Of a DNA stretch of 64,000 bases, positions 13,966 to 53,431 are shown piece after piece. This DNA comes from Viridothelium virens (Eukaryota > Ascomycota > Dothideomycetes > Trypetheliales > Trypetheliaceae): assembly GCA_010094025.1 (NCBI GenBank), contig ML991774.1, positions 64,821 to 128,820 on the forward strand. The letters are read 5' to 3'. Both the position numbers and the translations under genes were made by a program. Position 1 is the stretch's first letter. Each line of letters starts with the position of its first letter. The notes under the pieces are model-generated. The model did not search any database. It saw only the letters and a list, made by a program, of their open reading frames with translations, and was not told the origin of the DNA.

Positions 13966-15312
13966 ATGTCTGCGGACATGAGTGCTGAATCTATCCAGCA
14001 GAAGATACAGATTGCTCGCCGGGATGCCGAGGCGCTCAAGGACCGCATAAAGCGCAAGAAAGATGAGCTTGCCGACACCTCGCGTAAGTCTTGACCGCGT
14101 TCGTGAGCTGTACTGTCCCAATTGGCGTGTATGGCTGCTGTTTTCCGTGGAGTACTCACAATTTGCCTGCAGTTCGCGATGTCGCGCGACAACGGCTCGA
14201 AGCTTTGCCAAGGCTAACCATGAAGACCAAACGGACCTTGAAGGGCCATCTCGCGAAGATTTATGCTATGCACTGGTCCACCGACCGAAGACATCTTGTC
14301 TCTGCCTCACAAGACGGAAAGCTCATTATCTGGGATGCCTACACCACAAATAAAGTCCACGCCATCCCACTCCGGTCGTCTTGGGTCATGACCTGCGCCT
14401 ACTCACCTAGCGGAAACTACGTCGCTTGCGGTGGATTAGACAACATCTGCTCCATCTACAATCTCTCCGCCCGCGAAGGGCCTACCCGCGTTGCCCGTGA
14501 GCTTTCTGGTCATTCTGGATACTTATCTTGCTGTCGATTTATCAACGACCGGAGAATTCTGACCTCATCCGGTGATATGACTTGTGTGCTATGGGATATC
14601 GAGACCGGATCAAAAGTGCACGAGTTCGCTGACCATCTCGGCGATGTCATGAGCCTGAGCATCAACCCTCTCGACGCTAACCAGTTCGTTTCCGGCGCTT
14701 GTGATGCCTTTGCTAAACTTTGGGACATTCGTCAACAGAAGTGCGTGCAGACGTTTGCCGCCCACGACTCCGACATCAATGCCATTCAGTACTTCCCCAG
14801 CGGCAACGCCTTTGGAACTGGCTCAGACGACGCATCATGCCGCCTCTTCGACGTCCGTGCTGACAGAGAAGTGCAATCATACACGGTTAGTATTCTGATT
14901 TGCGTAGAAGAATTGTTTCCGCAATAACTCCTGTATCAGTGGCTTACAAGACCTTTTACTGACATACCAATACCGCAGATCGGTGAACCAGTGTGTGGGA
15001 TCACGTCAGTGGCCTTCTCAGTCTCTGGAAGACTGCTCTTCGCCGGATACGATGACTTTGAATGCAAGGTTTGTTACATCGGATGGCTATGGAGACAGTC
15101 GCGATTCTAACTCTGAAATAAAGGTGTGGGATACAATGCGTGGAGACCGTGTCGGCACGTTACAAGGTCACGACAACCGAGTAAGCTGTCTAGGAGTGAG
15201 CAACGACGCAATGAGTCTTTGCACTGGATCTTGGGATTCAATGGTATGTTTGATCTGTTGAAATTTTCTAAATTACGTCTAACAATGCCTCTAGCTCCGC
15301 GTATGGGCATAA
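13966..15312 (+). CDS. Heterotrimeric G-protein beta subunit
   Basis: Five exons are proposed: 13966-14083, 14173-14885, 14979-15068, 15124-15243 and 15295-15312. They give 352 residues, the standard fungal G-beta length. Residues 1-45 form the N-terminal coiled coil that pairs with G-gamma ([20 protein letters not shown]). Seven WD40 blades follow, with clear GH...WD pairs: [27 protein letters not shown] with [27 protein letters not shown] with CRLFDVR, and the last blade [14 protein letters not shown] ending in RVWA. It acts at the plasma membrane with G-alpha and G-gamma, controlling growth, conidiation and mating in filamentous fungi (SfaD, GPB1 and CPGB-1 are relatives). Its likely chaperone, the phosducin-like gene, is about 5 kb upstream on the same strand. 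Confidence 0.95.
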
Positions 15313-18211
15313 CCGCTCGGCCTCAGACACGCAGCATCATAAGATCCAAAAGAAAAAAAATTACCTGAAACATCTAATTCGCTTCCTGGCATAGAGTCAC
15401 GGGGTGAGGGCGGGAAGCGATGAATGTAATATGAACCGCAATTCAGCAAGGAGTTGCCCCGTTAGATGGAGGAGAGGAGTCCAGTTTCCGATGCTGCATA
15501 CTTTGACGCTCTGACTGAGGAGTTCTTTGATCGGATCCTCTAGTCGAGTGTCACTACTTATCAGCATATGGTCGTCTTCTATTTATTCTTTTCCTTTTCC
15601 CTGACCCCTTGTCCCACTCTCGGAGATTCATACCATAAGGCGCTTCTCTTCATGCTTTAGCTCAGTTTCCGCCGGTGGTGGTGGGAATGTCTTTAAGCAA
15701 GTCTACTGCTGTGCAACAAACTCACGGCACCTGTGCTCTTTCTATTCGCTACCCTTGAAAATGTTCGCTCTAATGCGCAGTTTGCGAAATCTCACTGCCT
15801 GCCCCATCATTTCTTCGCCTTGACAAATTCAGTTCCCCCCCAAAAATGGCGCGAGAGTTGAATGTGATGCTCGGTTCACTGTTCTTACTTACTCCCGCTT
15901 CACTTCTATCTATGGCGCGGCGTCCGATGTGTAACCTCTTTTCCCTTTCTATTATATCTCTTCAGAACTGCACCGCTAGCAACTACGTATATGTAAATGC
16001 GCGGGATAATGGAACCACCGCCAGGTCCTGCGTCTAAACCCTCAAATTCAATCCAATGGGAAGTTTCTGAATGTTCTCACCGCCTGAAAATCTTTCTCTC
16101 GCCTGATACGGTTACTTCACCCACGCCCGGCAGCAGAAGCAGCAGCCTCGCTTCGTTCGACCAAAAACGGGCGCTCATGCTTGCATTATGCATGCATTCG
16201 TGATCGGCGACACCGTCCTCGACCCACCCATTCCAGCCACTAGTTCCCGCCCGCTTCATCAAACTTATCTGATCGTCGCCGAATGTATATGCAATCTCTC
16301 GGCGTTCTATGCATATACCGGGTGGCACAATTACGGAGTAGGCAAATGCCTCTGAACGCTGTGACGCTGTATCCTGTCATTTCAACAAGGAACGCTCCAT
16401 ACCGTACCCTCCCGCCCATCGATTCATCCACCCGGTGGCCAAACAACGCGCAGGCAGCGATGCCCCAGCGTCGAGCGGTCGCAAGTCTTAGATGAGGCTG
16501 CATCTGCCTGCATCCATGATGTCGCAGCTCCCCTCTGTAGCTAGAGGCCCTCCTTTAGCACAGTAATACGTATCCACCTACCTCTAGGATCGCGCAGCGC
16601 CACGCAGCGACGGACTCGTTGCGGCTCTACTTACATACCTGCCGGCCTTGCTATGGCTACACATCGCGTCTCTGTGCACAAAGTGCCTCTGGGGTAGATA
16701 TCTGATGTAGACGTACATACATATCCTTGGTTCTGTTGCAGTAGCAGCAGACAGGCAGATGATCTCTCCGGTCCCTAGTCTCGATATCTGAGTGAGACGC
16801 CACTGCGATCGCGCCGAGTCCGGCGTGTGCTGATGCTGTTACCCACGTTGCGGTTCGCCGAGCTCCCGGAGACGATTGCTGCATCGAGGACGAAAAAAGA
16901 CGTGGGGCTAGGGCTTCTGGAAGGGGTAGGATACCTAGGTTGAGTAGGTAGGGAGGGGTGGAGGGGAGGGTGGGTGAGTCCGGGGGGTATTTCTCTACGG
17001 CCATGTCGGGCGAAAGGAAAATAAGGGTGCGTGGACGGAGGAGCTACACATGAATGTAGACTCCGTATGTATAAGTTGCGCCTGGCTTGACAGTACGGAG
17101 ATTAATGAGGGTCCGGTATATCGGGCTCTGCAGGTTCTGAATATTTGGTGTGGACCCTGAGGATAATTTCATGGGTAAAGTGGCGGAAGTAGGCGTAGCA
17201 GGGTCTTTTCTTCACATGCCGTGCACGCTTCCCTCTGATCTTATACTGTTTCGGGCATCTATCTCATATGCAGACAGATAGACAACTACTCAAGAATGGG
17301 GTTCCAGGCAAGATCCCGGGTATTGCTCCGTTTGGAATTGCGACGGTATCTGGCTCCAGCTCAATAACAAGTAGTACTGTACTGCCAGTTGGACCCTGGA
17401 TAGAGAATGTGCGCCTAGCAGATCATATCACAAAGCTCCTTGTTTTGTTCATTCGGGCCCTGGGCAAGGTGTACGTGGAGAAGCCATCAAATCTCTTCTA
17501 GACTTGCGTCTGTGATCTTGCGAGACCCACCTGGCGCTAAGGCCGTCTGCATAATGAATTGTATGCGTACACCGTCCCTTCGCATTCAGAAGGCTGCTTG
17601 ACCTGTGAAATATTCTGGGTGCATCAGCAGAACGTTGACGTTTTGAGCAAGAGGTAAATAAAACGAACAATACAAGCTTGGTCGGGAAGTCAAGATGGAT
17701 CCTTCAGTAGTCTCGACAAGTCCCTCCAAAGGATGACTTGGCTGAGGGACCATCCGAAAGAGCTATCGGTTCGACAGGAAATTGACATTACTGGTAAACA
17801 AAGCTTCCACGAGTGCTAGGCTGGAGGGAATTTAGGAAGCGACCTCTATTAATGCAATGTAGTTGAGCCGGAGCCAGAGCAGTCCTTCAGGAATTCTCCC
17901 TAAGAAACCCGTAAGGGAAAAGCGTGGTGACATTACGCAACGCAACTAGACGGCACGACCAAGATGCGACAGAGATTTATAGCACAGAAGCAGCATGCCG
18001 ACGTTGATTACGATTTAACAGTTGCAGTCTTTCCCTTTGGATTGATGAAATTCATGAAGTTCATGAAACCTATCTTTAGTTCCAGCACACTCAAACGTCC
18101 TGCATCATATCGCTGCGATGAAACCTGCTGTTGGGGTATCATAACACCATCAAAAAACGCCATCACGCCAATTCCATGCATTAATCATGCAAAAACTGCC
18201 TCTCATGACTT
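15313..18211. other. 2.9-kb gap between convergent G-beta and Slx8-like genes
   Basis: No gene could be supported. The longest frames, 16657-17004 (-) and 17964-18245 (+), lack motifs. TACGGAGTA occurs at 16332-16340 and its reverse-complement core ACTCCGTA at 17060-17067; TACGGAG also occurs at 17094-17100. As the flanking genes converge here, the region should hold only terminators, so its size is unexplained. Confidence 0.45.
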
Positions 18212-19127
18212 CTATGTTCCCGACGATGATGATCTTTTAGGCTGAGTGGCTAGCCCTTTTTTCATGATTTCGAGGGGAATGATGTCGTCTTTCTTGACTC
18301 GGGAAACCACTTTGCGACACACTGGACACATGCCACGCCGGCCGTCACCACCATTTCTAGCACTGAAGTTCAGGGCTTGCATCAGACATTCATAACAGAA
18401 TAAATGACCTGCAGCGCTGTTAGCATGACTCTCCGCTAGCATGGGAATGAGATGTAAACAAAGCGTTCGACTCACCACAGGAGGTCGCCGTGAGGTTGGT
18501 CGGGGTCTCCATGCAAATAATACAGCTTATTTTCGAAAGTTTTGTAGGCTTTCTCGAATCTTCTTGCAGTGCCACCTGTTGCTGCCGTTGCTTCTTCAAA
18601 GTATCGGCTAGAGCAGTGTCTTCCTCCACGAGATCTAGTTCTTCAATCGATCTATCGGCATTGCGCTGTAGCCCTGGCACTGAATCTTTTCTCATTCGCT
18701 TGTTTGGGGACGAAGAAGACGCTTCCGCTGCTCGTTTGGGAGCCTTTCGGGGGGCCATACCCAGGTAATCAGACTCAGAGCCGGGATCTAGTAGGTCGCT
18801 CCAAGATAGACTTGGCTGAGATTGGTCGAAACCCAAGGGGGAGCCAGTGGTGTCTCGAAATCCTGTGATTTCGGCAAAAGAAGGTAACTGGATCGAATCG
18901 TAGGAACTTCCTTCGAAGGTCGGTCGTATAGTAGGCGAGCTCTCCGAGTCTCTCGACGACGCAGCAGAGGATGGAAGGATATAGTTCTGGAGGACGGGGG
19001 GTAGCTGTCGAAAAGACTCGGAACGAGGAAAATTGGAGAACTGGGACTGGGTGTGAGAAGGCCGCCGGCGGGGAAGAGAGGTGTGAGAGCTGGCCGACTG
19101 AGAGGAAGCTGAGTCACGAATATCCAT
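18212..19127 (-). CDS. SLX8: RING-finger E3 ligase, Slx8-like (SUMO-targeted ubiquitin ligase subunit)
   Basis: Exons 19127-18476 and 18408-18212 around a 67-bp intron give 282 residues. The long N-terminus is Ser/Pro-rich and disordered, with a basic patch (APRKAPKRAAE, PNKRMRK) that looks like a nuclear signal. The C-terminal RING, residues about 202-256, reads CIICMETPTNLTATSC, then GHLFCYECL, then CPVCRK. The intron splits the cysteine pair from the GH motif, and splicing restores it. Slx8/Rfp proteins ubiquitinate SUMO-modified nuclear proteins together with a SIM-bearing partner; a candidate partner lies at 51424-52823. Assignment to Slx8 rests on RING spacing, small size and C-terminal position, so another nuclear RING ligase remains possible. 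It shares a 299-bp promoter with Mip1. Confidence 0.75.
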
Positions 19128-19426
19128 TACACTTTATTGATAGCTTGTTCCACACTCAAAGATCGTGTCCTGACATTGTAGCCATCCCTTTCCATGGCGG
19201 ATGAGACTGAATACCCAGAAAGCCTCACAAGCACGGTAAAGGACATCACCATCGTGAGCTCCGACCAGAAGATGCAGGTGCAAGGGCAGTCGCACGGACC
19301 ACAACATCGTGACTGTGCGTCATGACGCGAATATCTAGCTCTCAAAGCGAGTATTTCTATTCATCCACATCTCGTCTTCACCACTTGCCTACAATGAGGT
19401 GACAGCGGCACGCCTGTCGCCATATC
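19128..19426. promoter_or_regulatory. Divergent promoter of the Slx8-like and Mip1 genes
   Basis: Only 299 bp separate the two start codons. A perfect 12-bp palindrome, GCGTCATGACGC, lies at 19317-19328. It contains outward-facing CGTCA/TGACG half-sites, the core bound by many bZIP factors, and runs into ACGCGA. Function as an operator is inference from symmetry and position. Confidence 0.4.
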
Positions 19427-22400: not shown

Positions 22401-22837
22401 TTGAAGGTCTCATTGCTAAAGGCAAAGAAGCGCAGCTCGACCCTAATATAAAGCCACTGGATCCACCGCAGGTGGAGAATTTCCCCTACACACCACGTAC
22501 GCCTGTCATGGCGGATCTGCAGCACCGAAGTGATCAGTTGTACCTAAGGGCGCAAGTCACCAATGATGATAAGGAATTCCGCGAAATCTTGAAAGAGCTC
22601 AAGCCTCCTAGCGCGCCGAGAAAGTTGTCTCCAAGGGTAAAGAAGGAACAGCAAGGTTCCGATTTCCAAGCGAAACCGTTGCACTATCAGCAGACGGCAG
22701 CCCTGCTACCTGTCGACGAGTGGGCAGGTCAGAAGACCCATCAAACATGGGAGAGGGCGAAGAAATTCAACGGCTGGCATCATCTGGATGGAAATGCATT
22801 CAAAGCAGTTCCAACGAGGACTGCCGGCAGAGTGTGA
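19427..22837 (+). CDS. MIP1: Mitochondrial DNA polymerase gamma catalytic subunit
   Basis: An intronless frame of 1136 residues. This family-A polymerase replicates and repairs mitochondrial DNA in the matrix. The first 40 residues are rich in Arg, Thr and Gln without acids, a typical presequence. The 3'-5' exonuclease motifs are intact: TFDTEV (about 183), VGHNIGYDRARI (about 240) and YCAADVEITHRVY (about 370). The polymerase motifs are also intact: A, GADVDSEELWIASL near 711; B, RNDAKVFNYGRIYGAG near 764; and C, TVHDEIRYL near 911. The C-terminal extension past about 980 is the fungal tail, shorter than in budding yeast (1254 residues in total). The ATG at 19427 is chosen because it opens the presequence; the earlier ATG at 19394 is followed at once by a stop. 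Confidence 0.96.
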   Translation: MRIATQTRLTSNALQRQRIRLPSTQTPFWCQLRKWQIRTYAAEATEIEGSPSLASQGRYNDIGVQQVSEHVHKQLFPGTATRTPPELVALARDHLSRHDLLGKSSDSGNPVVLDLPVLQGHSLDEHFYRLGMDAAEPYLTQCKRYTRANAPPRPRKWVVRSGWTKYNVDGTSEPVDAPNESMLTFDTEVMWKETSFPAMACALSPTAWYAWISPWLLEESKSDRHLIPLGTIDEPRIVVGHNIGYDRARIAEEYDLRQSKSYYVDTMSLHVAVNGMCSRQRPTWNKHKKARELREKISKTDRDADLALLLESRAMQDDEEELWVGRSSVNSLRDVAKFHCGVTIDKARREYFSELDREGIRAKLDELLDYCAADVEITHRVYKKVFPLFLETCPHPVSFAALRHLSAQMLPVNRSWDAYIANAEVTYHKLSDAVVQRLVDLTETALEVKEQPDKYLNDPWLQQLDWSGQEIKMVKGKKKGDPPRPASRQKKPGMPKWYRDLFPTSTAAISLSVRTRIAPLLLKMAWDGYPLFWSDKYGWTFRVPKEEAQAYSNKAILDCDMSEETNLQLRHDTKHRYFKLPHKDGPSARCASPLAKGYLQYFEKGTLSSEYSYAKEALKMNASCSYWISARERITSQMVVYDHEAKGKLKQRGREHDEMGYILPQVIPMGTITRRAVENTWLTASNAKSNRVGSELKSLVKAPPGYCFVGADVDSEELWIASLVGDSQFKLHGGNAIGFMTLEGSKAAGTDLHSRTAKILDISRNDAKVFNYGRIYGAGLKFACTLLRQFNPELTDAQALEVASRLYTETKGKRTTRKALHERSFWRGGTESFVFNKLEDFAEQEHPRTPVLAAGITEALMRRYINKGGFMTSRINWAIQSSGVDYLHLLIISMDYLSRRYNLQVRLTLTVHDEIRYLVREEDKYRAAMALQVANVWTRAMFSQQMGIDDLPQSCAYFSAVDIDHVLRKEVDMDCITPSQPNPIPPGESIDIEGLIAKGKEAQLDPNIKPLDPPQVENFPYTPRTPVMADLQHRSDQLYLRAQVTNDDKEFREILKELKPPSAPRKLSPRVKKEQQGSDFQAKPLHYQQTAALLPVDEWAGQKTHQTWERAKKFNGWHHLDGNAFKAVPTRTAGRV

Positions 22838-23152: not shown

Positions 23153-26100
23153 ATGGACAAGAAGGCGCATGGTCTTGGCTTCGCGCGTACGTTACCTTCA
23201 CACCTTACCTACCTTTTTACCTTCCTTCACACTTTTCTTTATCTTCTTCCTCTCACTTCGTCCTCGTACCGTTTTCCTTTGCCCTGCATCCTAAGACCTC
23301 ATCTTCATCTATACTTCAGCTAAAGCATTTTCAATTTCGGCTCTACAAGTTTCGTTCATTTACGCTGCGGCGATAGGAACAGAGGTCCACACCGCAAGCG
23401 TACCCTACCACACGACCTATGCTATCGTAAACCAGCACAGTTTCTACTCAGGGACGGAACAGCCAGTAGAAAAATCCGGCATGAAGCCACCTTCCGGGCG
23501 ACTTGATGGCAATACGGTTGACAATCCAGTTAGCCCTGCCAACAACATGGAGCAGCTGGGCAAGAGTAACCACGCTGAGCGACCTTCTAGTGAGTCTTAC
23601 CTATATTGATTGATCGTCTCAACGGTCTCTCAATAATTGATGAATGGCTAGACTGTGCATTGATAAGGACGACCTGGATCGGCTTAGATGGTGCTGACGA
23701 CGAAACGCCTCAACCTTTGACGGATCTTACTGAAGAACCAGCGCCCGAAGAGCCTGCCCCCGGAGATCCTGCTCCGGAAGAACCTGCTTCAGGGCCTCCC
23801 GTCGACGAAGCTCCGGCCACAGAGCTATCTGCTGAGGATGTATCTACCACGGAACCAGAGGCTCCGGTTCCTGAAGAGGGACTGGTCGGAAGACAAGTTT
23901 CTGCTGAAGATCCAGCTCCTGCCGATCCAGCTGCTGGTGAGGAGCCAGCTCCTATAGAAGAGCTTCCTCCTACTGGAGCACCTGCTACACAGGTGGAACC
24001 TACGGCCGAGCAGGCTCTTGTTGATAATCTACCCGTCGAAGACGCTCCTGTTGAAAGGCCCGTCGAACGACGTGTCATCGAACAGCTTCCAGGCGAGCAG
24101 CCTCCATTCGAGCAGTCTCCAATGGAACGGTCTTCGGCTGAACAGCCTTCCGTTGAACAGCGTTCTAATGAGCAGACCGACCCTGTCATCAAAAAGGCTC
24201 TGGCTGAAGCTCCTCCAGTCGAACAGCCCGACTCGGTTATCACAACAGCACCAGTTGAGACTCCTCTTGAACAGCCGGAATCTATCGTCGAACAAGCATC
24301 AGCGGAGTCCACAAATATTGAGCAACCTGGGCCAGTAATCAAGTTGACATCCGAAGAGTCTCCACCTGCTGATCAGCCCGAGCCTGCCGTTGAGAAGGCA
24401 CTGGCGGAGCCTCCAGATACTGAGCAGCCTGGGCCTGTCAACGACACGCCAGCTGTTGAGTCCCAAGCCGTTGAGCCGCCTGAATCACCTGCGGCACAAC
24501 ACGAGCCTGTCACCGAAGAGGTATCTGTCGAGACTCCTCAACCTGACCCTCTCGTACAAAGGCAGGCCGATGAGCTTCCAATCGAACAAGCAGACCGTGT
24601 AGATGAGCAAGCAGCGGCTGAGCCTCTTGTTGTACAGGCCGACCCTGCTATTGCAAGTACACTGGCGGAGCCTCCTGCAGCACAACCTGAATCCTTCATC
24701 GAGAAGTCTGCCATGGAGCAACTTGAGCCGGTTGTTCAAGAACCGCGGCCGGAGCCGCCAATGGGTGAGCAACCTGAGGTGATTGTCGAGAATCCTCCGA
24801 CGGAAGAGCTGGTCAAAGAAGAGCCTCCGGTTGAGCTCACCAATGCCGAGCAGCGCTTCGTACAGCAGCCTTCCACTGAGCAGCCTTCCATTAAACAGCC
24901 TGAGCCCGTCGATGAGGCAAAGGTGGAAGAGCCTCTCGAACAGGAGCTCTCTACCGATCCGCCCGCGCTCGAACAATCTCCTGTGAACCAGGTCCACGAT
25001 GAACAAGCCCTCGATGCACAGGTAAAGCCTATCTCCGAACAGCTACCTGTGGAAGCACCCGTCAAAGAAGATCCTCGCATCGAAGCACCTACTGCCGAGC
25101 AGGCTCCGGTCGAACAGCTTCCCGTTGAGCAGGAAAAATCGGTGGAAGAGCCTACTGAAGAGAAAGCTCGCGATGATCAACCTGTCGTAGAGCAGGCTCT
25201 TATCCAGCCGGCTGCTCAGGAAGAGCTATACACGGAGCAATCGGCTGTGGAGCAACCGAGGCTCGTGAGAGAGCCAGTTGTCGAACAGCGTTCTATCGGG
25301 GAGCCTGCGGATGATGCTCCTGATAAAGAACCGGCTGTTGGACAGCCTCCTTCCACAGAGCAGCCTCCCTCAATCATCGGACCTGCTGCAGAAGTGCCTG
25401 CCGATAAGCCGCCTTCCCCATTCGATAGCACTCCTTCAGCAGAGAAGCCTCCCCCGATTGAGGGGCCCGTGCAAGCGGAGCAACCTTCCGTGGAGCTACC
25501 TCCACCGGTCGAGCGTCCAATTGACCAGCCTCCGCCAGTTGAGCGATCTGTACTCGAGCAAACCCCTGTTGAGCAGCCTCCTGCTGTGCAGGCTGCCGTG
25601 GAGCAACTTCCGGTCGAGCCGACTCCTGTCGAGCAGCCTCCTGTTGAGCAGCCTCCTGTTGAGCCGCCTCCCGTGGAGCAGTTTCCAGTAGCACAGCCCC
25701 TTGAAGAAAAGCCTCCTGCTGTGCAGACTCCTGTGGAGCAGCCTCCAATTGAGCAGTCTCCGGTCGAGCAGTCTCCGGTCGAGCAGCCTCCCGAGGAGCA
25801 ACTTTCAATCGAACAGCCTCCAGTTGAACAGCCTCCAGTCGAGCAGCCTCCAGTCGAGCAGCCTCCAGTCGCACAGCCTCCAGTCGAGCAGCCTCCAGTC
25901 GAGCAGCCTCCAGTCGAGCAGCCTCCAGTCGCACAGCCTCCTGAAGAACAGCCTCCAGTCGAGCAGCCTCCTGTGGAGCAACTTCCAATCGAACAACGTC
26001 CTGTAGAGCAACCTCCACTCGGGCCGCCTCCGGTCGAGCAATCCCCAGTTGAGCAGCCTCCTGTCGAGCAGCTTCCTGTCGAGCAACAATATGCACCCGA

Positions 26101-28705
26101 ACCTGTCCGTGAAGTAATCGCTCCGGAAGCTCCTCCCATTGAAGTAATAGCGTCAGAGCCTCTTGTCGAGGAATCTTCTGCTGCGGTACCAGATGTCAAA
26201 TCAGCTCCTGTTGAGGAAACTCCGGCGTCAACTCAAAGAGCTTCAGCTGAGGTATCTGCTGTCGATCCTATTGCCGAGACCGCCCCTAGAAAGCTACAGG
26301 TCGAGGATCCTCCCGTGATCGTACCTCCAGCTGAAATCCCCATCTCCGAGATGCCTCCTCAGGAACCTACTTTGGATCCTGCTCCTGTGGCCGAGCAGCA
26401 GGCTGAGATGCGTCCCGTCGAGGTGCCTGCACCAGAGTCGGAACCGACAACTACAAATGCTCCTCCTGAGGAAGCTCCAGCAGAGCCAGTTCAACAGCCG
26501 CCCCCACCTGAGCCTACCATTATCGAAGCAGGTCCAGTCCTGATAAGAATCTCGACAGCTCCGATTAATCCAACGCCTTCTCGACAACCAACACTTCCTG
26601 AAGTCGCCCCTGCAGACGTGTTTGAATCTGTTGCCGAGCCTCCGGCTCCTGTTGTTGCGGCTGAGCCACCCCCGGTGGAGGTCCCAGTGATTGAGGAACG
26701 ACCAGAGGTCAAGCAGCCCTTGCCTGTCCTCGAGCCTCCAAAAGCCGAGGAGCCGCCCAAGATCGAAGAGCCTCCCAGGATTGAAGAAACTTCCCCAATT
26801 GTTGAGCCTCCAAGGATCGAAGAAGCGCCTAAGATCGAGGAGCCTCCACCAACGGTTCAACCTCCACCAATTGCTGAAGCTCCGAAAGCTACTGAGCCGC
26901 CACAGATTGAAGAGCCTCCACCAATCATTGAGGTTGCGAAGGTCGAGGAAATTCCGCCAGTCACTGAACCTCCTGAGGTTGAGGAAACTCCGCCGATTGT
27001 CGACCCTCCAAAGGTTGAAGAGCCGCCTAAGATTGAACCACCGAGGATGGAGGAGCCTCCACCTGGGGTGGAACCTCCAAAGATCGAAGAGCCTCCATCA
27101 GTCATCGAACCTCCAAGGGTTGCAGAACCTCCGCCAGTGGTTCAACCCCCGATCGTTGAAGAGCCGCGCAGGATTGATAAACTGAACATCGAGGAGCTTC
27201 CGCCCGTTATTGAACTTTCCAAGACTGAGGAGCCGCCTAGGACTGAAACGCCGAAGATAGTGGAGCCTCCGCCGGTTGTTGAACCTGCAAAGGTCGAGGA
27301 GCCTTCGCCCGTTGTTAAGTCTCTGCCGATCGAGGAGCCGCCCAACATCGAGCCACCGGAAATTAAGGAGCCACGACTGATAGTACAACCTCCGAAGGTT
27401 GAGGAACCTCCGCCCGTTATCGAAGTCCCACCGTTAGTCGAGGCTCTAAACACTGTAGAGGCTCCTGCTGTCATCCAGCCTGTACCGGCTACCGAGCCTC
27501 CCAAGGTCGTCCAGCCTCCACCGTCCATTGAAGCTTCACCAATTGTTGAATCTCTAGTTGCTGTGCCTCCGCCAGTTGTTGAACTTCCGTCAGTGGCTAA
27601 ACCTCCAAGAATTGCCCAGGCTCCCCTCGTTACTGAAGCTCCTCCAATTGTCGAGCCTCCGCGAATCATTGAAGCTCCTGTGGAAATCGAGCCTTCCCCT
27701 GTCATTCGGTCTCCATCAGTAGTAGAAGCTTCAAAGGTCGTCGGGATTCCGTCCGTCATTGAGCCACCTAGGACTGTAGACCCCCCAAGGGTTGTCGAGC
27801 CTCCAACGGAAGCAGAACCTCCAAAGGTTGTCGAGGCCCCATCCTTCATTGAGCCACCCAGGCCCATAGACCCTCCAAAGATTATCGAGCCGTCAAAGGT
27901 CACCGTTGAACCCCCACTATTCGTTGAGGCTCCCAAGGTTGAACCTCCTAAGGTCGAGCCTTCAAAAATCGAGCCTCCGAAGGTCGAGCCCCTCAAATTT
28001 GAGCCTTTGAAGGTCCAGTCTCTCTCCACAGAGCCATTAAAGGTTGAGCCTTTGAAGTTAGAGCCATTGAAGGTCGACAAGCTTCCAGTTGAGCCGCTTA
28101 AGGTGGAACCTTTGAAGGTCGAGCCGATGAAGGTAGAGCCGCTTAGGGTGGAGATCAGGGTCGATGTGCCTAAGGCCGAGCCTCCTAAGGTCGAGCCTCC
28201 AAAGGTCGAGCCTCCACAGATCGAGCTGCCAAAAGTTGAACCGCCCAAAATCGAGCCGGCAAAGGCCGAGCCTCCCAAGCCTCTCAGACCGATTGACAAG
28301 CTGCTCAATTTGTTCAAACATAAGCCCAAGGGTACGTTGTTCAAGAACAGTATTTTGATCACGACCTGAAATAACGTATCGGCAGCTCCAAAAGCACCCA
28401 AGCCACCAAAACAGCCGAAGGCGCCTAAACCTCCAAAGCCTCCAAAGCCCCCAAAGGCCCCAAAGCCTCCCAAGGCTCCCAAGGCGCCGAAGCCGCCGAA
28501 GAAGGTCAAGCCGCCCAAACCACTCAGACCCCCAAAGAAGGTGAAGCCGCCAAAGCCTCCAAAGCCGCCTAAACCGCCTAAGCCACCAAAGCCGCCCAAA
28601 AAGATCAAGCCACCCAAGAAGCCAAAGCCGCCCAAGAAGCCAAAACCACCCAAGAAGCCCAAGCCTCCGAAGAAAGTCAAACCACCCAAGAAACCCAAGA
28701 AATAG
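23153..28705 (+). CDS. Giant Pro/Glu/Val/Lys repeat protein (PEVK-like low complexity), unrecognised
   Basis: Proposed exons 23153-23186, 23320-23589, 23688-28331 and 28386-28705 keep one frame and give about 1755 residues. Residues 1-101 are non-repetitive, with one hydrophobic stretch (AFSISALQVSFIYAAAIG, about 13-30) that could be a membrane anchor. Residues 102-700 are acidic irregular repeats rich in EEPAP and VEQP. Residues 700-905 are near-perfect PPVEQ pentads. From about 1105 to 1500 the unit is EEPPxVEPPK, and from 1515 to 1640 it is KVEPPKVEPLK. The last exon (about 105 residues) is nearly all KPP/PKK. The 4.6-kb main exon has no stop, and repeat codons differ mostly at silent positions, so the protein seems selected. 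No catalytic domain is seen and I recognise no family. Composition recalls the titin PEVK segment and proline-rich wall or cytoskeletal linkers. The 5' exons are less certain than the repeat exons. Confidence 0.72.
25610..26087 (+). repeat. 15-bp coding tandem repeat (PPVEQ units)
   Basis: About thirty 15-bp units encode Pro-Pro-Val-Glu-Gln with a few Ala, Ile, Glu or Leu substitutions. The block 25815-25940 is the most uniform (unit CAGCCTCCAGTCGAG). Flanking units vary at third codon positions. Uniform units suggest recent expansion by slippage or unequal crossing over, so length may vary between strains. Confidence 0.85.
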
Positions 28706-29138
28706 ACTTGGGGAGGCCCTGAGACTTGCTTTCTTTCTTTGGCAGAGAATTCACTGTAAGGCTTTGGCTGTGACGAGGGCTGTGATTGGGCTACGGACGG
28801 CGTGGAGTTCTGGATTGATTACCCTAGAGCAAGATAATGTACTTGTTGGGGCCCCTCGAGCTTGTGGACATAAATTTTTAGCATTAGAAACTTGGTATCA
28901 TCTTCTACTTCCTTTTTTAATTAAATTCCGGGTACGAAAGAAAAAGAGAACAGGTCTTTTGACAGTATACAAGAACGAAGCGAATGTGAAATCTAGGTGC
29001 CAGCCGAAGCAGCAGTAAGACCCTACTCGGGCATTCCAGCGCCCGTCGACTTGTATGATGCTCATTCGAGCCCACCGAATATCGCCGAAATGCTCTTCAT
29101 TATCCATCCATATATTAAGACAAAAAGAGTATCTATAC
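28706..29138. other. Short intergenic stretch between convergent genes
   Basis: This is the 3' flank of both the repeat-protein gene and the ceramide-synthase gene. AT-rich sequence near 28915-28930 could hold polyadenylation signals. No gene is seen. Confidence 0.4.
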
Positions 29139-30653
29139 TCAGCTCCCATTCTTCTTCCTTGACCGAAGATTTCTTTGGTTCTCCTGCTTTTCCTCGATCG
29201 GCTGACCATTGACCAAGACCTCGGGCGTCTGAGCCTGCTCCACCTCCTCCTCTTCCTCCTCGTCGTCACTTCTCTCATCCTTGCCCACGTTGGTCGCAAC
29301 ATATCTGTATGCAATTCGCAAGATGAAAGCAAGCCAGAGCAGATTTACGGCCTGCAAACTAGCAAGTAAGGCAAAGGTGATTATCTGTGAGATCCAACAT
29401 TTGTACTGTTGGGTCTCCCAGTTGAGCTCGTACGGGCCGACGGTGGCAAATTCTGTAAGGACGGCCCAAAGAATTCGAAGGTTAAGGTAATGACGGAGGT
29501 AGATCCAGATGCCAATGAAGGTCCCAAAATAGGGGCCCGTGATCGGCGAGTCGATGTAGTTGAGTACTTTGGATGTCTACCGCGCAAGTATGCACATCAG
29601 CACAATCCCACACCAATAGAAGAAAGTGATGTCTGCTTACCGCAAGAAAGAAATCGCTAATATCATGGGTAATGTACACCGCCAACCCCATGGTCGTAAA
29701 ATGAAACCGATAGCTCAGTCCAATCAAGGACAACGTGATGATATGATGCGCAACCAACTCCTTAAAATCCTTCCGCGGCTTCTCCAGCATCAGACACAGC
29801 ACAATCGCCTGCTGCGTCCAGTAGCTCGCCTGCAGCAAATAATACGCCTTGAACAACCCAACATGCTCCCGGTGCGGAAACCCCTCGAACATCGGCGCAG
29901 TCTGAAAATACCAGATCGGGCTCGCGTACCGCATTACGTAGAGCCCGAAGGGCCCGAACACAGCGAAGTAGATGGCGGTGTAGAACTGCTCCATGTAGCG
30001 GGCTTGCTTCCCTCGTGACCGGATCCCGGCGCGGATGGCAAGGGGTCGGATGAGGCGCTGCATGAGGAATTCGCGCGTGAAGGACAGGAAGACGGTGTAG
30101 AAGGCGACGAAGCAGAAGTCCTTGCGGCCCTTGCCGTAGAGGGTTTGCGCGGGGCAGCCGGCGCAGGGCACAGCGGTTCGGGAGAGAGGGTAGGAGAGGA
30201 AGAGGAAGGAGTGAAGCGGATTCGAGGGCGTCGGATTGAGGAGGTAGAGTCCGACCATAACGAGGCATATTATCAGAGGGTTGAGCCATGTGTGGCGTAG
30301 GGATATTGTCTTCCATCGTCGAAAGAGGGTTTTGGCTTTCCGTCGCTTCGAGTGTCGTGGTTTGTCTGTGGAACGCTGAGAGATCGCATGTTAGGTCTTT
30401 TCCACGTGCCGTGATCTTGGAGGGATTTTCGTAATGCTGAACCTACCCCTGCCGGTGTGGTGGGAGTCGTTGGGGGGCTCCCTTCTAACAGCGTCGCCAT
30501 GGCTGCAGCTCCAGTGTCGCCTCGGGGCTCTCCGCCGAGAGAGTTGGATTTTCGGCGTGGACGTACAGCGCTGCCATTGACGGACTTTGGAGACTCTCGC
30601 CGCACATACTGCGTGTGCGGTGTTGAGATAGAAGCCATGGATGTTTGAACCAT
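29139..30653 (-). CDS. lag1: Ceramide synthase (sphingosine N-acyltransferase, TLC domain)
   Basis: Exons 30653-30447, 30375-29641 and 29576-29139 give 459 residues. The enzyme joins a fatty acyl-CoA to a sphingoid base in the endoplasmic reticulum. The cytosolic N-terminus is Ser/Thr/Pro-rich and basic (KPRHSKRRKAKTLF), followed by several membrane helices. The Lag1 motif, residues about 275-314, holds the essential His pair and Asp pair: AHHIITLSLIGLSYRFHF and YITHDISDFFLA. The second intron follows FFLA and the frame resumes at SKVLNYIDSPI, as in other fungal Lag1 proteins. The tail carries an acidic DERSDDEEEEEEVEQ run and then a basic end. The ATG at 30638 is an alternative start five codons in. 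Whether it is the Lag1- or Lac1-type paralogue cannot be told. Confidence 0.92.
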
Positions 30654-50050: not shown

Positions 50051-51423
50051 TAGCGGCATTGCGAGTCACCACGAGCCTATGGCTGTGCATGTACATGACA
50101 TCGGTGATAGTGCTGGCTTTGAAGATGGCCGATATACCGGAAGGACTGTAGTATGAGGTCAGAAAGGTAGATGCCGTTGTAGATCTCCGGTACGCTAAGG
50201 GAAAACTTTGTCGACCTTCCGACATCATGTCATTTTCCTGGTCTCCATCCAGTATTGTCAATACTCTTCAAACCAGAGATCGACCAGAAAATCGAGTCAA
50301 GTTGCCACTCTCTTACGATCTTAAACAGCTCCCTCGAATGGTTTCGGAGGCAATCGTCAGATACCGACAACGTGGTCATAACCGGCTACATTTGAAATCG
50401 AGCATCCGTCAACTCGCTGCTGTATCCATACCAATGCCGTTGAAATAAACATACTCGTCATTGCATGAGCGACAAGTTCAATAAGCCTACTGAATCGAGT
50501 ATGTCGTGTTACCTCAGCACAGGCAATCTGACATATCTGTTCATGAATATACTCGTGGGGCTTTGTAAACTTGCAGCGCTTTCCATGTGCCACTGCGTAC
50601 CTTAAAAGCACTATACATGTAGGTAGGTAGTCGCAGCAGCCCGCTACTGCCTTAGGATAAGTCTATTTCCCAGCAACAGATTAGCTATGCGTGGTCCATT
50701 TCATGTATTAAGGTTCCCGATGTGTTATTTAGTAATATAGGGCTGTAACATTCCTGTTCGAAGTGGTCATGCTTATCCTTACGCTGCCGGATTTGCTCAA
50801 TTTTACTTGGTAGCATCTGATATTACTATCCCCGTTCCCTTGGACTCGGCTTTCTGGAATGCTGCCAATGTGGATGAAGCCAACATCATCAAAAACGATA
50901 CCCACGGCCCTGCTCACATTCAATTTCGGCCGTGAGTAATGGATTCTGTGCCTATATATCACTGTTGCTCTTCCCGCACTCATGTTTGAGAAGCCAGCAG
51001 CTGAGCTGGGACTCGGGTAAGTACCTAGCCAGGGCTTTCTGAGAAAAGAAGATACGATGAGGTTAGTGCTATCAAACTTGCCGCTTGTTCTCTGCAAAGG
51101 TCTTCTGGGTATGGTACTAAAACTTTACGAACGCGCCTATCGATCATCCTGCGCCTCAATTGCGACATGGATTAATAGATTCCCGAGTTCAAAGACTGAT
51201 TGTCTGAAGTATTAGTATCGATGGTACAACTGGCGAACGCTACTGATGCAGAATTTGCTCAGTGGATGAGGATTTGAAAAGGACTGATCAAAGATCGAAG
51301 CTGTTAGCCTCAGACCACCTCCCATGCCGTAACCCAGCCACATGAATCATTGGAAACCACAAATGCAGGACCAGACCGTACCGCGCTATGCAAATACTTG
51401 AAACCCTTTGATGAACACCAAGA

Positions 51424-52823
51424 TCATAGGAACAGTTGCAGCATTTGCTTTGGTCCGGATACCTTCCTATGGCACCCCTCGACCACGCACGTCGTAAACC
51501 CCGTCTTCGTTCCCGCCTTCGCCTTCCCCTTTCCCATCGGCTCCTTCCCTTTCTTCTTCGCACTACCCCTCCCGTGCGCGCACTCGCCGCAGTAGACCTA
51601 TAACCGGCATCGTCAGCATCATTCACCAACACAGCACTCATCTTCGACCTCCCAGCAAAGAGACAATATCCAAAAGAGCCACTCACATGTCCACACCCCT
51701 TCACGATCCACACCTGCACCTTCAACGTCCCCTCCCCTCCATCCCCAAGCTCATCCCCACAATTCGGACACACCAACACCTCCTCCGCAGGGCTCCTCGT
51801 AAACCCCTCCCGCGCCGGCGCCGGCGGCTCCAACATCTCCTTCATCCGCCGCTGCCGCCCGTCTCCACCCGCATACCCCAAGTCGAACCCGACGCTCTCG
51901 TAATCCTCAGGCCCGATCCCGATGTGCACGAGCGGCGTCGCCCCCACGCCCACCGCCGCCGCGGGCGTCGCGACGCGGATGCCGCGCTCGGTGCCGCGGT
52001 GGTGATGGTGGTGGTGATGGTGATGATGGTGGTGTCGGTGCGGGTTGGAGCCGCCACCACCGGCAGCTGGGTCGTGCAGGCTCGCCGGGTGGACGGTGGA
52101 GGTGGTGGCGGAGGAGCCGCTGGCGAGGCTGGCGAGCGAGATGGGGCCGGAGAGGTCGTCGAGGCCTTGTACGTGCCGTCGGAGGCGGGCGGTTGGGTGG
52201 TGCTGCGATTCCCGGTTTAGGATGGCGAGGGCGCGGTGGTGGGGGGAGGCGGCGGAGGAGGAGGTTACGTGGAAGGGGCTGTAGGAGCCGAGGAAGTCGG
52301 CGATGGATTGGCCGAGTGACGTGGGTCCGGATATGAAGTCGAGGTGTCCGGGAGGTGGAGAGATTTGGCGGGAGGAGAGGAATTCGACTTCTGGAGAAGA
52401 TGCACGAGGGGCGGCGGGGGAGCCGTCATCTTGTGTGAGGTCTATGGGTTGAGTTTGTGACTGTGACTGTGAGGACGGATCGTGTGTTGTGAAGTCTTCA
52501 ACATCTATTATATCTCGATCAAAACGTGGAGGTCTGGTAGGTCGTGAGGTGGTGGCATTGCTACTATTATCTTGTTGATCCCGAAGAGGCGCTTGTGGTG
52601 GTGTATCTTCTGTGAGGTCGATGACAGTTTCCTGGCGATCAGTAGAGCCCATTGGGCGTCGAAAGTCAAAACCATCTCCTGGGAATCTGATATTATCTAA
52701 GGATGGGTAACGAGGGTTGGTCGCTTGTGTAGACTGAGAGTCTGAATCGTTTGAAGACGATGGAACTTCGCTCAGCCACCGCGATGGCACATACGGAGAG
52801 GTAGATCGATTATTACTCGACAT
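51424..52823 (-). CDS. SIM-rich RING-like protein, candidate Slx5-type STUbL partner
   Basis: Exons 52823-51687 and 51597-51424 (89-bp intron) give 436 residues. The N-terminal half carries four acidic-hydrophobic SUMO-interaction-like motifs: VIDLTED (67-73), IIDVED (105-110), PIDLTQDD (126-133) and VEFLSS (146-151). A 13-residue His tract lies near 263-276. The C-terminal zinc-binding part reads VCPNCGDEL, then KGCGH joined by splicing to VYCGECAHGR, a Lys/Gly-rich insert, then TTCVVEGCHRKV. That is a RING-like CxxC...C-GH-xxC-xxC...CxxxxC pattern with an atypical last pair. Slx5/Rfp proteins have this plan (SIMs plus degenerate RING) and pair with Slx8, whose homologue is at 18212-19127. 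The role is inferred; I give no symbol because family membership was not tested. Confidence 0.72.
51996..52036. repeat. His-codon repeat (coding) in the SIM-rich gene
   Basis: A GGT/GAT-type trinucleotide run on the plus strand encodes a nearly pure His tract on the minus strand. CAC and CAT alternate, so the protein rather than the DNA repeat may be maintained. Confidence 0.8.
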
Positions 52824-53431
52824 TTGGTCGAAGTTTCGCTAAGAGACAGCGTCAGCATTGGTTTCGTCGATTTTATAGGTGCTTGAGGAGTAGATTTGTC
52901 GTTCATTACCTTTCGCCTTGTAGGAGTATGAGTGCACACAAAGGGCAAGCTGCTCGCCATCGTCACTGACTTTGGCACAGTCAGTGAAACGGCAAAGAGG
53001 AAGCAGGCAGGTTCAAGCAGCTGAAGGTCTGCTGCATTGAGGTTGAGTGGCGGGTCGAGGTTAGCGCGGGAGGGCTCGAAACGAAGTGTCGTTCAAAGCT
53101 GGCGGCAGTTGGTGGGCGCCTCAGTGATGTCGAGATCAGCAGTCTCACACCAGGCAATCCAAGAATCCTGAAGAACTGAGGATTTGAGCATCTCACTTCT
53201 TGAAGATCCCCTCAAAGTTTTTTTTATTGAAGATGCGCACATGAAGACTTCTTCGCAGGTAGACAGTAAATATCATTTCGTTGTCACGCTTGCGCAATTG
53301 ATTCGCTTTGACCGAAGTCCACTACCTATCTTGTTGTACAAGCCGTCAAAGAGCACCATTTTAAAAGATCACCTCTCCTTCGAATGAGGCTTTGAGGACT
53401 CTAAAAGAAATTTTCCGCATTTATTCCCAGT
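52824..53431. other. Intergenic stretch upstream of the SIM-rich gene
   Basis: About 0.6 kb; promoter of the SIM-rich gene and the 3' flank of Prp19. No gene is seen. Confidence 0.4.

Follow-up and report, generated by a model that had tools for sequence, protein, structure and literature searches.

Gene structure and genomic setting

The 64-kb stretch of Viridothelium virens DNA examined here (the window; contig ML991774.1, positions 64,821 to 128,820) very probably contains a genuine fungal gene whose product is long, unfolded, and rich in proline, with its charge arranged in zones from acidic to strongly basic. The gene occupies positions 23153 to 28705 on the plus strand, between a mitochondrial DNA polymerase gene (stop codon at 22837) and a minus-strand frame with a TLC domain (29482 to 30390). 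The window also carries PalH, fungal transcription factor, and mitochondrial polymerase genes, a gene content that is fungal. The four exons proposed over this span in a preliminary description are borne out by a predicted model with GT..AG introns, which fits the span and yields a product of 1,767 amino acids (190.6 kDa). Overall, the results support a charge-zoned, proline-rich, probably disordered protein with constraint at the protein level.

Putative exon 1 (23153 to 23186; MDKKAHGLGFA..) ends at a GTACGT donor, hinges on intron 1, and has a poor start context, with T at −3. Putative intron 1 (23187 to 23319; 133 nt, 77% pyrimidine) contains none of the branch-like motifs looked for and could alternatively be a CT tract of the promoter or 5′ untranslated region. 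Exon 2 (23320 to 23589) encodes the nonrepetitive N-terminal region, including a weak hydrophobic segment, AFSISALQVSFIYAAAIG, and an alternative ATG at 23481. Intron 2 (23590 to 23651; 62 nt, GTGAGT..TAG) is required, since the exon 3 frame has no Met until well inside the repeat. Exon 3 (23652 to 28331), the main open frame, is followed by a frame-neutral intron 3 (28332 to 28385; 54 nt) and by exon 4 (28386 to 28705), which encodes the KPP/PPK tail and the stop codon. Intron 3 holds an in-frame TGA (28367 to 28369); as read from the frame, a transcript keeping this intron would encode a protein that ends at 28369 and loses the basic tail. On the minus strand, antisense frames at 25216 to 26232 (338 codons) and 27142 to 28818 (558 codons), both stop to stop, mirror the repeat and were judged to be by-products of its composition.

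Composition and charge zonation

Pro, Glu, Val, Lys, Gln, Ala, and Ile had been estimated at about 1,650 of 1,755 residues; the recount is 1,359 of 1,767 (77%), with Pro, Glu, Val, and Lys making up 1,013 residues (57%) and proline alone 24%. Phe, Trp, Tyr, and His together account for 29 residues, and the longest run free of all four is 407 residues. The zoning described earlier was recovered, with VEQPP, EEPPxxxEPPK, KVEPPK/KVEPLK, and KPP sequences all present in an acidic-to-basic order. Zone 1 (residues 128 to 740; 23729 to 25567) consists of degenerate acidic PxxEQ/EEPAP sequence with a net charge of −108. Zone 2 (residues 741 to 907; 25568 to 26068) is built of VEQPP pentapeptides and corresponds to a Tandem Repeats Finder array of 34 copies of 15 nt (25571 to 26085). 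Zone 3 (residues 908 to 1115; 26069 to 26692) is a degenerate acidic/Ala/Val spacer, and zone 4 (residues 1116 to 1520; 26693 to 27907) has EEPPxxxEPPK units with six- and twelve-residue periodicity. The KVEPPK/KVEPLK pentapeptides of zone 5 (residues 1521 to 1640; 27908 to 28267) are near neutral and are nearest to PEVK in composition. The first part of the basic zone 6 (28268 to 28331) carries an LRPIDKLLNLF motif. Proline recurs every five residues in zones 1, 2, and 5, every six in zone 4, and every three or six in the tail, with no clear spacing in zone 3.

Net charge is −211 over residues 1 to 1500 (sum of fifteen 100-residue bins) and +48 over residues 1641 to 1767. Individual bins have a net charge of −24 at residues 101 to 200 and −6 at residues 1401 to 1500, and the last 67 residues carry +31. 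Basic residues tend to come later in the chain than acidic ones (mean relative positions of 0.69 and 0.46; Mann-Whitney P of 3e-16), and the charge gradient has a Spearman coefficient of 0.69 over 39 windows of 40 amino acids (residues 129 to 1688, the last window being already in the tail). Disorder and expansion would be expected from the 24% proline, the few aromatics, and the block-separated charge.

The preliminary description also likened the composition to the PEVK segment of titin, which holds for the last third of the protein at most. Residues 128 to 1115 contain just 1.8% lysine, so that the greater part of the protein is an acidic sequence of P, E, V, A, and Q. Pro, Glu, Val, and Lys each reach 8% (a threshold set in this analysis for 60-residue windows) only at residues 1265 to 1362 and 1476 to 1664, i.e., over 287 of 1,767 residues. 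As in titin PEVK, the chain is presumed to be disordered, and its P+E+V+K+A content is high (0.658 for the whole protein and 0.683 over residues 128 to 1767). The threshold of PEVK_Finder is 0.54 with alanine included, but it was set for exons in a sliding window and is applied here to the whole protein; mammalian PEVK exons average 0.79 in one half of the segment and 0.84 in the other (PMC6469411). Unlike titin, the protein has no PPAK or EEE motif, no Ig or other domain by Pfam, and no homology to it.

Evidence for coding and for protein-level constraint

Exon 3 has no stop in 1,559 codons; 500 Markov-1 resamples averaged 52.3 stops, with never fewer than 33, and the five other frames of the region contain 11 to 117. 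In the VEQPP array, zones 4 and 5, and the tail, third codon positions show the most differences between repeat copies. At codon positions 1, 2, and 3, the differences amount to 0.156, 0.228, and 0.373 in the VEQPP array at lag 15 (P of 3e-4), to 0.363, 0.204, and 0.566 in KVEPP (27926 to 28279) at lag 15 (P of 5e-5), and to 0.296, 0.296, and 0.510 in the tail at lag 9 (P of 0.017), these P values being optimistic because the compared sites overlap. The DNA polymerase gene, used as a control at the same lag, is flat by codon position (0.745, 0.735, and 0.750). The earlier proposal that silent variation among repeat codons reflects selection is thus upheld in these arrays but not in a 90-nt segmental duplication (see below).

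Third positions were also compared with random synonymous codons. In zone 5 at lag 15, the observed difference was 0.583 versus 0.649 for random codons (14 of 200 draws as low); in the tail, it was 0.600 versus 0.594 at lag 18 (117 of 200 draws) and 0.534 versus 0.612 at lag 9 (15 of 200 draws). Third positions in zone 5 and the tail are therefore near the random-synonymous level, and the amino acid motifs there outlast the DNA.

Several results weigh against the spacer or scaffold reading favored below. The 90-nt duplication shows no third-position excess (8, 3, and 6 differences; P of 0.33). Compared with random synonymous codons, third positions are somewhat less variable in zone 4 (0.617 versus 0.694) and far less variable in the VEQPP array (0.383 versus 0.654), with none of 200 draws as low in either case; long constraint is therefore not established in these zones. 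Synonymous codon bias does not pick the frame (33.8 versus 56.8, 46.2, and 74.7 in three other frames). The comparison of repeat units suggested in the preliminary description gave pN/pS values of 0.22 to 0.38 across all repeat-unit pairs, but these are biased low, as the units were picked by amino acid likeness. We infer that the basic end may be old and motif constrained and that the VEQPP core may be recently expanded.

These data bear on a somewhat unlikely alternative, in which the protein is of low complexity, evolves fast, and fills a loose, replaceable role as a coat, charge buffer, or crowding agent; its length and order would matter little, and the zones would reflect successive repeat expansions. 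The apparently recent expansion of the VEQPP array, repeat periods that vary from zone to zone, and the lack of a relative in the collections searched or of a detected second copy (see below) are consistent with it. However, amino acid motifs in zone 5 and the tail have persisted longer than the silent sites there, and sharp charge zoning would be superfluous for a filler.

N terminus

The putative N-terminal hydrophobic anchor corresponds to the exon 2 segment AFSISALQVSFIYAAAIG, which lies near residues 14 to 32 if translation starts at 23153. Its Kyte-Doolittle mean over 19 residues, the highest in the protein, is 1.46, the usual threshold being 1.6. An in-frame ATG at 23481 lies downstream of the segment, and translation from there would omit it; position −3 is G at this ATG but T at the one at 23153. 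The anchor is therefore conditional, as the segment is translated only if the 23153 start and the 133-nt pyrimidine-rich intron 1 are used. From intron 1 to the ATG at 23481, the sequence is stop free, and of its three frames that of exon 2 has the highest coding score (−1.5 versus −7.0 and −16.7). In a second coding test, the same stretch had a log likelihood ratio of −1.04; 20% of 234 in-frame control segments scored at or below this value, which was equaled or exceeded by 7.5% of 702 out-of-frame or antisense segments but by 40% of the 88 stop-free ones. The weak segment noticed in the preliminary description thus exists, and an N-terminal membrane anchor is possible but not established.

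A hydrophobic N terminus would also suit a secreted or cell wall protein with an extensin/PELPK-like composition, in which exons 1 and 2 would encode a signal peptide and the lysine-rich tail would bind anionic wall polymers or melanin. Short proline-rich tandem repeats are shared with plant extensins, and the Pfam model Extensin_1 (PF02095) scores 106.8 on the exon 3 frame against a gathering cutoff of 105, the sole match above a curated cutoff among Pfam, NCBIfam, and PDB. This match was judged to be compositional. SPPP(P) is the extensin glycomodule, and SPPP is absent from the protein, which also differs from extensins in its very long acidic zone; a signal peptide is not secure, given the Kyte-Doolittle maximum of 1.46 and the uncertain start codon. 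Plant wall proteins carry PELPK repeats, which resemble KVEPPK (PMC3149072). Location in the wall or secretion is disfavored by a Ser-plus-Thr content of 8.4%, a single N-glycosylation sequon, and the lack of a hydrophobic C terminus: the protein ends in KKPKK, and the best 19-residue Kyte-Doolittle mean in the last 300 residues is 0.2, with no hydrophobic glycosylphosphatidylinositol signal. Together with the subthreshold N-terminal segment, which the Met at 23481 bypasses, these features make a wall protein unlikely.

Basic tail

With a charge of +48 over residues 1641 to 1767 and dense PPK motifs, the tail appears suited to an anionic surface or to SH3 domains. PP[KR] occurs 20 times in the tail, compared with a shuffle mean of 9.3, and the class II SH3 motif PxxPx[KR] occurs 16 times, compared with a mean of 9.1, a count reached in 5 of 1,000 shuffles. 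Binding of F-actin by titin PEVK provides a precedent for the docking of such chains on the cytoskeleton (PMC12295887).

The PxxPx[KR] excess raises the possibility of a multivalent SH3 ligand or a polarity or endocytic scaffold whose PPK tail recruits SH3 proteins. Any KPP repeat yields PxxPx[KR], however, and the excess may be a simple consequence of this; the tail has 3 class I SH3 motifs, fewer than the shuffle mean of 9.0, and PPPP occurs once in the whole protein. A role centered on SH3 recruitment is consequently rather improbable.

Search for relatives

No homologue was found in any library searched, apart from the compositional Extensin_1 match, a further point against the proposed spacer or scaffold. 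The collections covered were the source genome (30.7 Mb, 175 contigs), Pfam, NCBIfam, PDB, and bacterial and archaeal contigs, and not fungal proteomes, viral, phage, or plasmid sequences, PHROGs, or PADLOC; orphan status holds for the collections searched only. The N-terminal 127 residues gave nothing in Pfam up to an E value of 1, a best PDB match to a cryptochrome at an E value of 0.14, and 96 pattern matches in bacterial and archaeal genome contigs, none of which was upheld by tblastn. NCBIfam gave nothing for exons 3 and 4 up to an E value of 0.1, and two weak PDB matches to zones 4 to 6 (E values of 0.0024 and 0.066) were judged to be compositional. Literal repeat strings matched no relevant title among the literature matches listed.

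Searches of the source genome with the N terminus, zone 4, and the tail returned 2, 3, and 2 matches, respectively, and no second copy was found, although only the best candidates are scored and low-complexity queries are hard, so that a diverged copy could escape. The only nonself match (contig C35; 26% identity, E value of 0.005) was not taken as a relative. The gene is single copy as far as these searches show. Elsewhere in the window, minus-strand frames at 51288 to 52838 (516 codons) and 18420 to 19133 (237 codons) had no Pfam match.

Proposed function

We tentatively favor a disordered protein that acts inside the cell as a spacer or scaffold, its acidic arm expanded and its basic PPK tail docked on an anionic or SH3 partner, although the case for it falls short of even odds. 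After a short nonrepetitive N terminus, the chain would run through about 1,400 acidic residues rich in proline and a KVEPP stretch of nearly neutral charge and end in the strongly basic PPK tail. The acidic part would be kept expanded by repulsion between its charges and by a bias toward polyproline II. The tail would dock on an anionic partner (acidic lipid, nucleic acid, or cytoskeleton) or on SH3 domains, and its presence would depend on whether the 54-nt last intron is spliced out. The disorder, the cellular location, the partner, the role as a spacer, and the intron switch are all predictions from sequence. A worm-like-chain estimate for the repeat part, with assumed persistence lengths of 0.5 to 2 nm, gives an end-to-end distance of 24 to 49 nm at rest, a contour length of 590 nm, and a stretched length of at most about 0.5 to 0.6 µm.

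A comparable order of charge is found in the periplasmic spacer of TonB, which is extended and changes from acidic Glu-Pro to basic Lys-Pro sequence; that spacer is bacterial and short, and no homology with the fungal protein is expected. Long disordered proteins are also known from the septal pore of filamentous ascomycetes: the SPA/SPP proteins, at least one of which carries proline-rich motifs, are described as favoring Arg and His and avoiding Lys and Gly (PMC10023807). The protein studied here has 2.6% Arg, 0.5% His, and 6.4% Lys, in contrast to that bias, and its Gly content (1.6%) is indeed low; this comparison uses whole-protein percentages rather than the fractional-difference method of that paper (PMC10023807).

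Leashin and the Woronin body

A PEVK-like elastic tether has already been proposed for fungi and is not a new idea: Ng et al. (2009) likened the acidic, PELS-rich linkers of Leashin (LAH-1/LAH-2, Lah), which tethers Woronin bodies in Pezizomycotina, to titin PEVK and proposed convergent elastic tethers (PMC2690989). The present gene shares with Leashin a long, acidic, proline-containing repetitive linker and a filamentous ascomycete host that appears to carry HEX-1, which would place it in Pezizomycotina, and the possibility that it is Leashin or one of its split halves was considered. Predicted leashins have 5,936 to 7,480 amino acids in other species, the unsplit Neurospora locus would encode 10,821, and even its two split products are of about 400 and 450 kDa (PMC2690989); the protein studied here has 1,767 residues and 191 kDa. 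Leashin has a coiled coil and a C-terminal transmembrane segment (PMC5345055). In contrast, the window protein has a basic KPP tail, lacks a hydrophobic C-terminal segment, and, judged from its longest proline-free stretch (27 residues, the N-terminal hydrophobic one), has no apparent coiled coil.

A separate probable Leashin gene of the same genome lies on contig C40 at about 50,702 to 70,994, with a linker bearing repeated SKKEKKK-type basic motifs. It was located with a degenerate pattern for the C-terminal Lah peptide, hand-translated from A. fumigatus Lah primers (PMC5345055). The pattern had four matches in the genome, one exact (contig C40) and three with one mismatch, and the reversed-pattern control had seven; because the control outnumbers the pattern, the identity of the C40 locus rests on the coiled-coil-like flank, the MDREQRQKLK sequence, and the giant open reading frame. 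A 558-amino-acid frame there contains, by reading, a coiled-coil-like stretch and a transmembrane segment, VFMSVVMTMVWEYVFTRYLFG, together with MDREQRQKLK. Upstream in the same frame, separated from it by one stop, is a frame of 6,205 amino acids that is open at the edge of the extracted stretch, and the two probably belong to one spliced gene. Peak PEVK content in 300-residue windows at 25-residue steps is 44% in the 6,205-residue frame versus 73% in the window gene. Searches for Leashin by repeated strings returned one match (E value of 0.29) and then four (best E value of 0.004, with four stops inside), none of them at C40 and none accepted. Identity of the window gene with Leashin is practically refuted by these sequence comparisons.

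Beyond the spacer or scaffold favored above, the gene might define another class of molecular spring in fungi, with no relation to Leashin, in which a charge-zoned polyproline chain is anchored at its N terminus and clamped by its basic tail, with retention of the 54-nt intron as an on/off switch for the clamp; we regard this as improbable. If such a tether were real, PEVK-like elastic linkers would have arisen at least twice in filamentous ascomycetes, and the features needed for elastic tethering (charge zoning, length, and proline spacing) would become testable. Otherwise, the gene would represent a large orphan disordered protein with amino acid motifs that outlast the DNA in part of the chain.

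Contig C79 contains, at 15131 to 15331, a frame (658 to 1725 in the numbering of the extracted segment) with an eIF-5a-family domain, a histidine-rich N-terminal part, and a C-terminal SRL. This frame probably encodes HEX-1, the Woronin body core protein, which points to Woronin bodies in the source fungus.

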